Source of the DNA: a virus
Length of the DNA: 22,080 nucleotides
IMG/VR virus record: IMGVR_UViG_3300043452_000043
Location: 1-22,080 of that record
Reading direction: 5' to 3' (one strand)
The notes under the pieces are model-generated. The model saw nothing but the letters and a program-made list of their open reading frames with translations, did not search any database and was not told the origin of the DNA. Both the position numbers and the translations under genes were made by a program. Shown one piece after another: positions 1 through 2,263 of the stretch (its first letter is position 1; each line of letters opens with the position of its first letter).

Positions 1-101
1 ATAAAAAGCGCATCGCCAATTTCAGTTTCGTTAACAATGATGGCATCTTTGCGATAGCTGCGTTGAACCCCGATGAAGCGGCTCGCGATAATTTAGCCTA
101 A
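1..101 (+). CDS. 3' end of an unidentified rightward gene (partial)
   Basis: An open frame enters from the left edge (first full codon at base 3) and ends at TAA 99-101. It encodes about 32 residues ending NPDEAARDNLA. Too little is visible to name a family. It runs toward the phage late operon and is followed 16 bases later by a good terminator, so it is probably the true end of a gene. Because Mu-like genomes end just after the modification genes, it may be host DNA next to the phage end, but it could also be a rightward phage gene. Confidence 0.45.
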   Translation, partial: KKRIANFSFVNNDGIFAIAALNPDEAARDNLA

Positions 102-117
102 TTTTGCGCGATAAATC

Positions 118-153
118 AAAACCTTGCCACTTTCACGGTGTGCAAGGTTTTTT
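118..153. terminator. Bidirectional intrinsic terminator
   Basis: A perfect 10-bp inverted repeat, AAAACCTTGC (118-127) and GCAAGGTTTT (142-151), encloses a 14-base loop. On the plus strand it runs into six T (148-153), a standard rho-independent terminator for the gene ending at 101. On the minus strand the stem is followed by TTTTGATTTAT, a weaker T-rich tail, so it can also end the leftward late operon whose last stop is at 184. Confidence 0.85.
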
Positions 154-183: not shown

Positions 184-1305
184 CTATTCTTTGCCTAGAT
201 ACCTAAACCCTTGAACGGCTCTGAAGTGCCCACCATAGCCCGCTTTGGGGTTCACAAAGCCGCCCTTAGCGGCCGACTTGGCGATGCTGGCCATGCTGCG
301 GGCTTTGTTGTTGCCCACCAGATTAGCTGATACCTGCGTCCAGCTGCTCGATCGGCGTAGCGCCGTGGCTAAGCCGGGGTGGCTGGTGTGGAACAGGGTC
401 AGCATGGGCTTGTTGTAGCGGTTTTGGCCGGTACGCCACAGCTCGCAGACTGCGTCCAAGAATCGCAAGCCCACCCCGGCACCCTGCCATTGCGGCATGA
501 CTACAAGGCGGCAAGCCCGCGCTTCTTTCATGCCGGCCCTGGTACTCACGCCTACATGGGCTACGAGCTCGCCGTTGACCGTCGCTACATAGTTAGTGGC
601 CGCGATCATGTGGGGCAGCTTTAGATAGTGATGCGGCTCAAATACTGGCCAATGCCGCCAGTTGGTTTGCCAAAGCTCGACGCCCAGTCGTGGCCGCCGC
701 CAAAGTGACCCCCGTAAGAACTTACCGCTGCCGGTGTCAAACACCCAGTCCGGCTGTACCCAGTCCAAGATGTCGTAATGGCAGCTCAATAACACCACTT
801 GCCCCTTGGTGCGCCGCCACGCCTTGGCAAACGCGCCCGCGCCGATCTGGGCGATTTGCCGGTCGACGACGCTGCTGAACTCATCCAAAACGGCCTGTTC
901 TGGCGCTTCAGCGATCAGTCTGGCCAAGTTGGCACGGAACTGTTCGCCGTTGGACAGCACGCTGTATGGCCGCAGCCATGTGGGCACGCTGCCCAAGCCG
1001 ACGCTAGATAAGGCGGTTGTGACCTCGTCAAACGAGCCCTCAGGGGCGATGGCGTCTATCACGGGCGCATTAGTTGGCCATTCAGGCGCGTACAGGGCGT
1101 GTTTTCCCCACAAATTGCGCCCAATACTGGTCTTACCTGACCCGCTAGGGCCGACAATCACCCCGATTTGCCACGGTGCGCTCTCAAGGTCGATATCGGC
1201 CTCTAGGCTGAAATTAGCGCCCGTTTCGACATTGAACAATGACTTCACCCGCGCCGCGCGGTAACTGTTGAAATCGTCGCATTGGTGTTTAACGTCGATT
1301 TTCAT
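184..1305 (-). CDS. ABC-ATPase/GNAT fusion protein, candidate DNA-modification enzyme in the mom position
   Basis: The protein is 373 residues from ATG 1305, which overlaps the previous stop as ATGA and has an AAGGTGG ribosome site. The first half is a soluble ABC-type ATPase: Walker A GPSGSGKT at 52-59, signature LSNGEQ at 117-122, Walker B VLDEF at 139-143, a D-loop-like SVVD and a switch His near 176. The second half is a GNAT acyltransferase: an HHYL motif at 225-228 and the acyl-CoA loop QWQGAGVG at 272-279. No membrane segment is visible, so it is not a transporter. It is the last gene of the late operon, downstream of a Com homologue, exactly where Mu has mom. Mu Mom is a GNAT-fold enzyme that modifies adenine in phage DNA to block restriction. 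I infer a similar role here, with the ATPase possibly handling DNA access or substrate activation. The domain calls are firm; the DNA-modification role is an inference. Confidence 0.85.
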   Translation of the reverse strand: MKIDVKHQCDDFNSYRAARVKSLFNVETGANFSLEADIDLESAPWQIGVIVGPSGSGKTSIGRNLWGKHALYAPEWPTNAPVIDAIAPEGSFDEVTTALSSVGLGSVPTWLRPYSVLSNGEQFRANLARLIAEAPEQAVLDEFSSVVDRQIAQIGAGAFAKAWRRTKGQVVLLSCHYDILDWVQPDWVFDTGSGKFLRGSLWRRPRLGVELWQTNWRHWPVFEPHHYLKLPHMIAATNYVATVNGELVAHVGVSTRAGMKEARACRLVVMPQWQGAGVGLRFLDAVCELWRTGQNRYNKPMLTLFHTSHPGLATALRRSSSWTQVSANLVGNNKARSMASIAKSAAKGGFVNPKAGYGGHFRAVQGFRYLGKE

Positions 1306-1463
1306 ACGCAAACCACCTTGACCTTTAGGCCCTGCTTGGTCAGCCTACTATATAGAGCGCATTGGTGCATTTCGTCTCTGGCCGTGATGACTAAGCCGTA
1401 TTGCTGCCGGTAAGCAAAGCCGTTTTCACCGGGTCGGAGGCTTGTTTTTGGAGTCTTCGTCAT
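1302..1463 (-). CDS. Small 53-aa protein between com and the ATPase/GNAT gene
   Basis: This is a 53-residue ORF with a strong ribosome site (GAAAGGA, 7 bases before ATG 1463). Its start lies inside the 3' end of com, in another frame, and its stop overlaps the next start as ATGA. This tight coupling on both sides supports a real gene. The protein has a compact pattern (YGLVITARDE, then HQ.LYSRL..QG.KVKVV) that looks like a small alpha/beta fold; I do not recognise a named family. Its start is where Mu mom would start relative to com, so it is the first candidate for translational control by Com. Confidence 0.75.
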   Translation of the reverse strand: MTKTPKTSLRPGENGFAYRQQYGLVITARDEMHQCALYSRLTKQGLKVKVVCV

Positions 1464-1638
1464 GTATTGTCCTTTCAGACATCGACGCTCCAAGGCGCTC
1501 TGGTGTGGGGTTCTTGCCCCCAGGTGGGGCGACCCTCAAAGTGTTCATCACGCCGCAGCGTGGGCACTTAATTACTAAACAGGTGTATTGTCCTGCACCC
1601 AGCTTGCGCGAGCAAGCACCACATCTGATATCTTTCAT
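1426..1638 (-). CDS. com: Com-like zinc-finger translational regulator
   Basis: This 70-residue protein closely resembles Mu Com: it starts MKDIRCGAC and has two CxxC knuckles (C6/C9 and C25/C28, the second as KCPRC), which would bind one zinc. In Mu, Com binds the mom mRNA and opens its ribosome site so that the DNA-modification enzyme is made late. Here com is followed by overlapping frames for a 53-residue protein and an ABC-ATPase/GNAT fusion, so those are the expected targets. There is no clear Shine-Dalgarno sequence before ATG 1638. Instead one arm of a 9-bp inverted repeat lies just upstream, which suggests com itself is controlled. The C-terminal 30 residues are polar and probably disordered. 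Confidence 0.9.
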   Translation of the reverse strand: MKDIRCGACSRKLGAGQYTCLVIKCPRCGVMNTLRVAPPGGKNPTPERLGASMSERTIHDEDSKNKPPTR

Positions 1639-1786: not shown

Positions 1787-2263
1787 TTACTTCAACGCTG
1801 GCCAGCTGGCGGCGCAGTTGGTTTTGTCGGCAACATGCCCGTCAGCTGCTTTTGCGAGTCCTTTAGCCATGCCTCCAAGCTCTCCAAATAGCTTTTCGAG
1901 GGTATCGGCTCGTTCCACGCAGGTGCCGAGGGTATTGTTGGCGGCGCGGCTGTCACGGAGGGCGCTGCGCAGCCCGTCAAGCTCAGCGCCGACACGAGTG
2001 TCAACGCTAGCAATAGTCTGGCGGGTTTTAACGTCTGCGTCATTGGCTTTGTCCTTTTTAAGTTGGTAGGCACGCTCGGCTAGGCGTTTCACTTCTTTGG
2101 CCGCATCTTCAGCCTGGCTATGCTCCAGCTTGAGGGCGGCGATGCTGCCGGCCTGCAGCTTCCACGCGCCGGTGCCACCGAGCACACCGCCTGTGGCAAA
2201 GCACAGCACAGCCGCCCACATCCATGTGGTGCCGCCCGTGAAAAAGCTGGTAATAAGTCCCAT
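1787..2263 (-). CDS. Rz: Rz-like inner-membrane spanin
   Basis: The 158-residue protein has one N-terminal membrane anchor (about 14-34) and then a long polar helical stretch (about 38-125) typical of the periplasmic coiled coil of i-spanins. With the o-spanin it spans the periplasm and fuses the inner and outer membranes in the last step of lysis. The identification rests mainly on an Rz1-type lipoprotein gene lying wholly inside it in another frame. TAAGG before ATG 2263 is a usable ribosome site. It closes the lysis region before the com leader. Confidence 0.8.
   Translation of the reverse strand: MGLITSFFTGGTTWMWAAVLCFATGGVLGGTGAWKLQAGSIAALKLEHSQAEDAAKEVKRLAERAYQLKKDKANDADVKTRQTIASVDTRVGAELDGLRSALRDSRAANNTLGTCVERADTLEKLFGELGGMAKGLAKAADGHVADKTNCAASWPALK
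1792..2043 (-). CDS. Rz1: Rz1-like outer-membrane spanin lipoprotein, nested in Rz
   Basis: This 83-residue protein is encoded entirely within the Rz gene in a different frame. ATG 2043 has a good ribosome site (AAAAAGGA, about 7 bases upstream); a longer in-frame start at 2073 is less likely. It has a signal peptide of about 24 residues ending in a lipobox LTGC (22-25). The mature part is short and Pro-rich (APPTIPSAPAWNEP, PTKPTAPP), the hallmark of o-spanins. The full embedding is the same arrangement as lambda Rz/Rz1. Confidence 0.88.
   Translation of the reverse strand: MTQTLKPARLLLALTLVSALSLTGCAAPSVTAAPPTIPSAPAWNEPIPSKSYLESLEAWLKDSQKQLTGMLPTKPTAPPAGQR

Follow-up and report, generated by a model that had tools for sequence, protein, structure and literature searches.

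The window analysed here is a stretch of 22,080 nucleotides from a virus (IMG/VR record IMGVR_UViG_3300043452_000043, positions 1 to 22,080). Near the end of this 22-kb record, at the right end of a Mu-like phage, three coupled genes lie on the minus strand from 1638 to 184: com, a 53-codon ORF (ORF53) and a gene for a 373-residue protein in which an ABC ATPase is fused to a GNAT domain (ABC-GNAT). As the remainder of the window consists of Mu-like phage head, tail and lysis genes, this operon occupies the position that mom has in Mu. The genes and protein domains are:

1426..1638, minus strand: com, 70-aa Com-type CCCC zinc-ribbon RNA-binding regulator (PF10122 and phrog_6417)
1302..1463, minus strand: ORF53, 53 aa, start codon within com (phrog_28816 and family HMM)
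184..1305, minus strand: ABC-ATPase/GNAT fusion, 373 aa, ATGA overlap with the ORF53 stop (phrog_11143, alignment, AlphaFold2 model)
697..1305, minus strand: ABC nucleotide-binding domain, residues about 1-203, catalytic motifs all conserved in the family
187..684, minus strand: GNAT domain, residues 208-373 (structure model)
469..492, minus strand: GNAT motif A QWQGAGVG, residues 272-279, acyl-CoA pyrophosphate loop
118..153, no strand assigned: terminator-like inverted repeat AAACCTTGC...GCAAGGTTTTTTC, 3' of ABC-GNAT, read by eye

The com product, the translation of which contains two CxxC pairs, matches the Pfam profile PF10122 (Zn_ribbon_Com, 3.4e-10, exceeding the curated cut-off) and phrog_6417 (translational regulator, 9.6e-15), ORF53 matches phrog_28816 (6.5e-16), and ABC-GNAT matches phrog_11143 over its full length (6.7e-158, residues 1-372) as well as ABC and GNAT profiles. 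A preliminary description of this DNA had placed exactly these three genes here and had found no separate mom; the PF10122, phrog_28816 and phrog_11143 matches, the conserved motifs and the structure model confirm the former, and no PF25680 (Mom) was found in the 22-kb record. A consensus promoter scan gave no promoter-like site for the operon, Rfam gave no match, and the inverted repeat behind ABC-GNAT (118..153) is not listed by the terminator scan. Directly upstream of the operon, an Rz1-like lipoprotein ORF (1792-2073, minus strand) lies within an Rz-like spanin gene (1787-2263, minus strand); at the other side, beyond the terminator-like repeat, the end of a convergent ORF is found at 3-101 (plus strand), for which either a host or a phage origin is possible.

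In an alignment of 34 ABC-GNAT sequences, with relatives down to about 25% identity, the Walker A motif, the LSNGEQ signature, Walker B (D141/E142), the D-loop and the switch residue H176 are conserved, with the key residues invariant, and R266, P271, G275 and G277 of GNAT motif A are kept; Q274, G275, G277 and G279 of this motif are invariant in alignment A3. The AlphaFold2 model of the protein (pLDDT 84.6) consists of two confident domains, and among the matches listed by the structure search the ABC domain resembles MalK (Z 15.0, 177 residues, 3.2 A) and the GNAT domain RimI (Z 14.6, 134 residues, 2.9 A). When the GNAT domain was searched alone, the matches listed again included ordinary CoA-dependent acetyltransferases (1y9k, Z 14.8; RimI, SpeG). 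PADLOC gave only weak matches of ATPase type to ABC-GNAT, and no toxin-antitoxin signature in the five cassette and partner proteins scanned. The annotations of Javan523, pT24 and TR-TP2 (L089, L090 and L092) assign the ABC part and the GNAT part to separate, neighbouring genes.

Relatives of ABC-GNAT were found in 54 annotated phage records, in 157 IMG/VR stretches (the best 80 of which were analysed) and at 38 bacterial genome loci, and plasmid records contain a few full-length relatives. Using profiles made here, we could distinguish 73 com-ORF53-ABC-GNAT loci from 38 loci in which a ParB-type gene takes the place of com, these counts not being independent events because many loci are near relatives. 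The succession of com and ABC-GNAT, on whose recurrence in other phages the preliminary description had staked its reading, is thus found at 73 loci. The type of regulator follows the ABC-GNAT protein tree, with 12 changes along it as compared with 43.9 when the labels are shuffled.

An ORF53-like module stands directly 5' of ABC-GNAT at 73/73 com-type and 36/38 ParB-type loci, an arrangement beyond chance. At the ParB-type loci, which have no com, the module is the C-terminal end of a ParB_N-domain protein that precedes ABC-GNAT. ORF53 itself matches an HMM of this C-terminal module at 1e-21 and gives no match to ParB_N (PF02195), the C-terminal module alone being present. Since the same module ends the ParB_N partners of ABC-GNAT, ORF53 is, at the level of profiles, the stand-alone form of an established partner, lacking the ParB_N part. 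The 53-residue protein had been put forward as a possible co-factor of the enzyme; the family HMM replaces this by a more definite identity, for ORF53 is no orphan. One ParB_N partner was compared with the PADLOC models, and it aligns with positions 3-156 of the 436 in a model for type II methyltransferases (1.3e-34).

The region between the com zinc finger and ORF53 contains the elements of an RNA switch. The RNA motifs selected by Haemophilus sputorum Com are CC(N)2-3GAG and GAG(N)2CC, presented in hairpins with 6-nt loops; the Com site of Mu is a hairpin beside an inhibitory fold by which the start of mom is concealed (PMC6483171). The corresponding features of the window are:

1485..1498, minus strand: putative Com-box hairpin GCGC-[CUUGGA]-GCGU, of the form CC(N)3GAG, with a 4-bp stem (outermost pair G-U) and a 6-nt loop
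1448..1493, minus strand: predicted TIS-like inhibitory fold, stems UUGGAG...CUCCAA and CGUC...GACG plus a hairpin over the Shine-Dalgarno (minimum-free-energy fold, z -1.71)
1470..1475, minus strand: Shine-Dalgarno-like AAAGGA of ORF53 (sequence)

The hairpin lies 21 nt 5' of the ORF53 ATG and fits the experimental Com motif of PMC6483171. The predicted fold masks the Shine-Dalgarno and the ATG of ORF53 in stems that reuse bases of the Com hairpin, which is the logic proposed for Mu, and because the two structures overlap they are predicted to exclude each other.

CC(N)2-3GAG occurs between the com zinc finger and ORF53 at 64 of 68 com-ABC loci, where 25.3 would be expected. Among 121 distinct Com-box sites, 93 of them from ABC-GNAT loci, 82 have three more stem pairs outside the C-G closing pair, as compared with a mean of 25.3 and a maximum of 36 when the partners are shuffled, and the stems are of 17 types (AGG/CCU, GCG/CGC, ACG/CGU, AUG/CAU and others). 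At least one full-stem hairpin is present at 58/68 com-ABC loci and two at 35/68, with none at 10/68. Boxes occur at 52/73 com loci, at 0/38 ParB loci and in 15 of 365 random pieces (4%). Folded as single strands, the short pieces are unremarkable one by one. When the hairpins are forced, the accessibility of the ribosome site rises in 33 of 46 sequences and falls in 3, with a gain of 0.130 as compared with 0.068 for shuffled flanks, and since this baseline is itself positive the effect is partly trivial. The accessibility effect is modest, and the covariation across loci is the stronger evidence for the switch. With Com-box hairpins at 58/68 com-type and 0/38 com-less loci, ORF53 and ABC-GNAT are very likely a payload under the control of Com, the binding of which is predicted; the same sequence evidence strongly supports control of ORF53 by Com and, through coupling, of ABC-GNAT. 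Dam control of the kind known from Mu was also considered, and rejected since there is no GATC (Dam) site between com and the upstream lysis gene. In the whole window (1-22080), GATC occurs 64 times, where 44 would be expected.

A further gene, usual in the relatives, had escaped the preliminary description. Where enough sequence is available, the start of a gene matching the Formyl_trans_N profile lies only a few bases from the stop of ABC-GNAT at 52/58 com-type loci, with an overlap, and at 27/36 ParB-type loci. Its best PDB match is the N-terminal (hydrolase/formyltransferase) domain of 10-formyl-THF dehydrogenase (8e-24), purine and tRNA formyltransferases ranking lower. The product has the motif YHPSLLPRHRG. 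All 76 of 76 sequences retain the catalytic His position, 74/76 have a D-x-G consistent with the catalytic Asp, and in 71/76 Gly stands where the usual triad has Asn. It resembles the dehydrogenase domain in this best match and in its catalytic His and Asp positions, and differs from it in being encoded by a free-standing phage gene. The database name phosphoribosylglycinamide formyltransferase, given to the gene at L083:6113-6730 and at most related loci, is disfavoured by the sequence. No copy of the formyltransferase was found in the 22-kb window record, where its usual place is taken by the terminator-like repeat and the end of the convergent ORF, while the nearest relatives of the window (L002-L004) possess the gene. 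Several other com-type lineages are without it (L014, L055/L071, L160, L161 and L162), so that the formyltransferase counts as an accessory gene, outside the core. Phage Jace has in its place, behind ABC-GNAT, a gene for an aspartate decarboxylase (L086:4110-4535; PF02261, 2e-33); in this single case the enzyme could supply beta-alanine or a CoA precursor.

Elsewhere, and with the same Com boxes, com is followed by mom (in Mu and its relatives and in PAN70) or by DNA methylases, as in the Pseudomonas phages B3, UMP151 and Bise, Curvibacter phage TJ1, Burkholderia phage AP3 and Stenotrophomonas phage Smp131. The methylase operons resemble the present one in that com precedes a DNA-modification gene, mostly with an overlap, and in having the same hairpins; they differ in having a single payload gene, of a known enzyme class that transfers methyl groups, and no ATPase. 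As com with its hairpins stands before methylases at L128-L134, P2-like phages included, the Com switch is wider than mom. The tail sheath nearest to that of the window belongs to Bise (com-methylase, 58%), and the next to Komp_PAO1_1, which has com-ORF53-ABC-GNAT-formyltransferase. In Porphyromonas phages, one and the same series of tail genes is followed by Mom in 014a and by ORF53-ABC-GNAT-formyltransferase in 008a. Phage PX29 has both Mom and ABC-GNAT, and the two are therefore not strictly interchangeable. The place of the Com switch ahead of mom and of methylases, together with the slot shared with Mom in Porphyromonas phages, supports a DNA-modification role without proving it.

We consider it reasonably probable that the operon is a late, Com-switched DNA-modification cassette in which ABC-GNAT replaces Mom and transfers an acyl group onto a base; both DNA as the target and the acyl product are suggested by context. 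In its strongly supported part, this model would have the mRNA fold mask the ribosome-binding site of ORF53 until Com binds the CC(N)2-3GAG hairpin located towards the 3' end of the com coding sequence and opens the fold, whereupon ORF53 would be translated and, via the ATGA overlap, ABC-GNAT. ORF53, whose module is elsewhere fused to ParB_N, may then serve ABC-GNAT as an adaptor or as a subunit that directs it to its target. Two ABC domains would close on ATP and so bring the GNAT domain onto phage DNA; an acyl group from acyl-CoA would be transferred to the exocyclic amine of a base before packaging, shielding the DNA from restriction. In most relatives the formyltransferase, similar to that of 10-formyl-THF dehydrogenase (FDH), would complete or feed this chemistry, and the phage of the window, with no formyltransferase at the usual place, would carry a simpler product.

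A bolder proposal, which we put forward with considerable doubt, is that the full cassette (Com or ParB, the ORF53 module, ABC-GNAT and the FDH-like formyltransferase) modifies a DNA base in a manner not previously described. The nearest solved relative of the formyltransferase transfers formyl from 10-formyl-THF to a phosphopantetheine thiol. By one route, the phage enzyme would likewise load formyl from 10-formyl-THF on such a thiol and the ATP-driven GNAT would pass it to the base, giving a formylated base; by another, the GNAT would attach an acyl group with an amine, to be capped by the formyltransferase. If this were true, phages without the fourth gene, that of the window included, would have a different or unfinished product.

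How far the cassette is a variant of the Mom system, as the preliminary description had it, depends on whether the regulation or the enzyme is considered. As in Mu com-mom, a Com-type zinc ribbon comes first, an RNA hairpin lies just 5' of the payload start, the genes overlap, the payload has a GNAT fold and the whole lies at the right end of a Mu-like genome. To read ABC-GNAT as standing in the role of mom is fair, given 73 com-linked loci, the Com-box hairpins and com before mom or methylases elsewhere. The part of the claim that did not hold concerns the enzyme. Mu Mom (PDB 8bv8) belongs to the GNAT superfamily by published work, and ABC-GNAT shares the GNAT fold with it at the superfamily level (RimI Z 14.6, 1y9k Z 14.8); Mom 8bv8 is not among the 50 matches listed for either structure model. 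Membership of ABC-GNAT in the Mom family was rejected by Pfam (no match to PF25680 up to E = 1), by our own profile and by hhalign, the profile-profile comparison of GNAT with Mom giving a probability of 0.8%. The motif A region of Mom, MPRNSESRA, lacks the QxxGxG loop, whereas the canonical acyl-CoA loop is conserved in ABC-GNAT. Further differences from Mu com-mom are the payload of ORF53 plus ABC-GNAT, the ATPase domain, the formyltransferase of most relatives, which Mu com-mom does not have, and the lack of GATC sites in the stretch from com to the lysis gene upstream of it. If ABC-GNAT were a genuine Mom that has diverged very far, it would make N6-carbamoylmethyladenine and have its ABC domain as an extra module for energy or control. 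This would explain why regulator, genome end and superfamily fold are all the same; in view of the profile results, the loop, the formyltransferase and the retention of both enzymes by PX29, we consider it highly improbable. Judged by sequence, the cassette works like com-mom, yet its enzyme is not a Mom.

The other readings concern the target of ABC-GNAT and the meaning of com. That the Com-switched enzyme acylates not DNA but a protein, whether restriction enzyme, RNA polymerase or virion protein, and so acts in late counter-defence or host takeover, seems to us rather unlikely, though it is the weightiest of these: the GNAT model, with its normal acetyl-CoA loop, is nearest to acetyltransferases of proteins or small molecules such as RimI and SpeG, so that a protein target fits it equally, and phage GNATs acetylating host RNA polymerase are a precedent (PMC7824862). 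It is opposed by the company that the enzyme keeps, since wherever another Com payload has an annotated function it is mom or a DNA methylase, the ParB_N partner scanned resembles a DNA methyltransferase model over the N-terminal part of that model, and the slot in Porphyromonas phages is common with Mom. These pairings, with ParB_N and with the switch of DNA-modification genes, are so tight that they also speak against a modification of RNA or aminoacyl-tRNA acting on late-infection translation. TmcA, an ATPase-GNAT fusion for tRNA, and the GNAT toxins that target aminoacyl-tRNA show that such activities exist; the ATPase of ABC-GNAT is of ABC type and that of TmcA of helicase type, PADLOC found no toxin-antitoxin signature in the five proteins scanned, and this reading is improbable. 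It is very doubtful, finally, that com is a hitch-hiking remnant of a former com-mom or com-methylase operon with no control over the genes behind it. Com and its payloads are indeed shuffled between phages, and the window retains one of the usual two hairpins, but the hairpin stems covary, mostly in ABC-GNAT loci, which suggests active selection, and the boxes are found at none of the 38 com-less relatives. The DNA-modifying cassette under Com control is the reading that we retain.

An ABC-GNAT system for acyl modification of DNA was predicted by Iyer in 2013, as restated with the example of Tenacibaculum phage pT24 (PMC7824862), and the pT24 protein is in the same ABC-GNAT family (match H38 of our protein search). 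From that system ours differs in the Com switch, in the stand-alone ORF53, which takes the place of a ParB fusion, and, in relatives, in the formyltransferase. A literature search that did not extend to the text of Iyer 2013 gave no paper linking the ABC-GNAT family to Com or to a formyltransferase, and no nucleoside measurement for any member came to light; as far as checked, the Com wiring, the identity of ORF53 and the formyltransferase partner are new, and an overlap with Iyer 2013 on the ParB and formyltransferase context is possible. The results suggest a general role for Com, as an RNA switch of late DNA-modification genes in phages and not of mom alone, with a Com-box consensus now drawn from many phages and the same layout recurring in dozens of them. 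They also tie a widespread ABC-GNAT family (157 IMG/VR stretches, 54 phage records) to Com and to a formyltransferase of folate-dependent type, ties that narrow its likely chemistry to acyl plus formyl transfer. The cultured PAO1 phage Komp_PAO1_1, which has the full set, could reveal a new DNA base and an anti-restriction mechanism.

Some observations on individual phages may be added. The P2-like phages AP3 and Smp131 also have com and Com-box hairpins before their DNA methylases. An exception among Com payloads is Pseudomonas phage DVM-2008 (L135), where com precedes a 214-aa gene with no annotated function in a holin/colicin-M-like cluster; this gene is possibly a further Com payload. The window itself is mosaic between 14783 and 22069, its head protein being nearest to those of the non-contractile phages DMS3/JBD24 (60%) and its contractile tail sheath nearest to that of Bise (58%).
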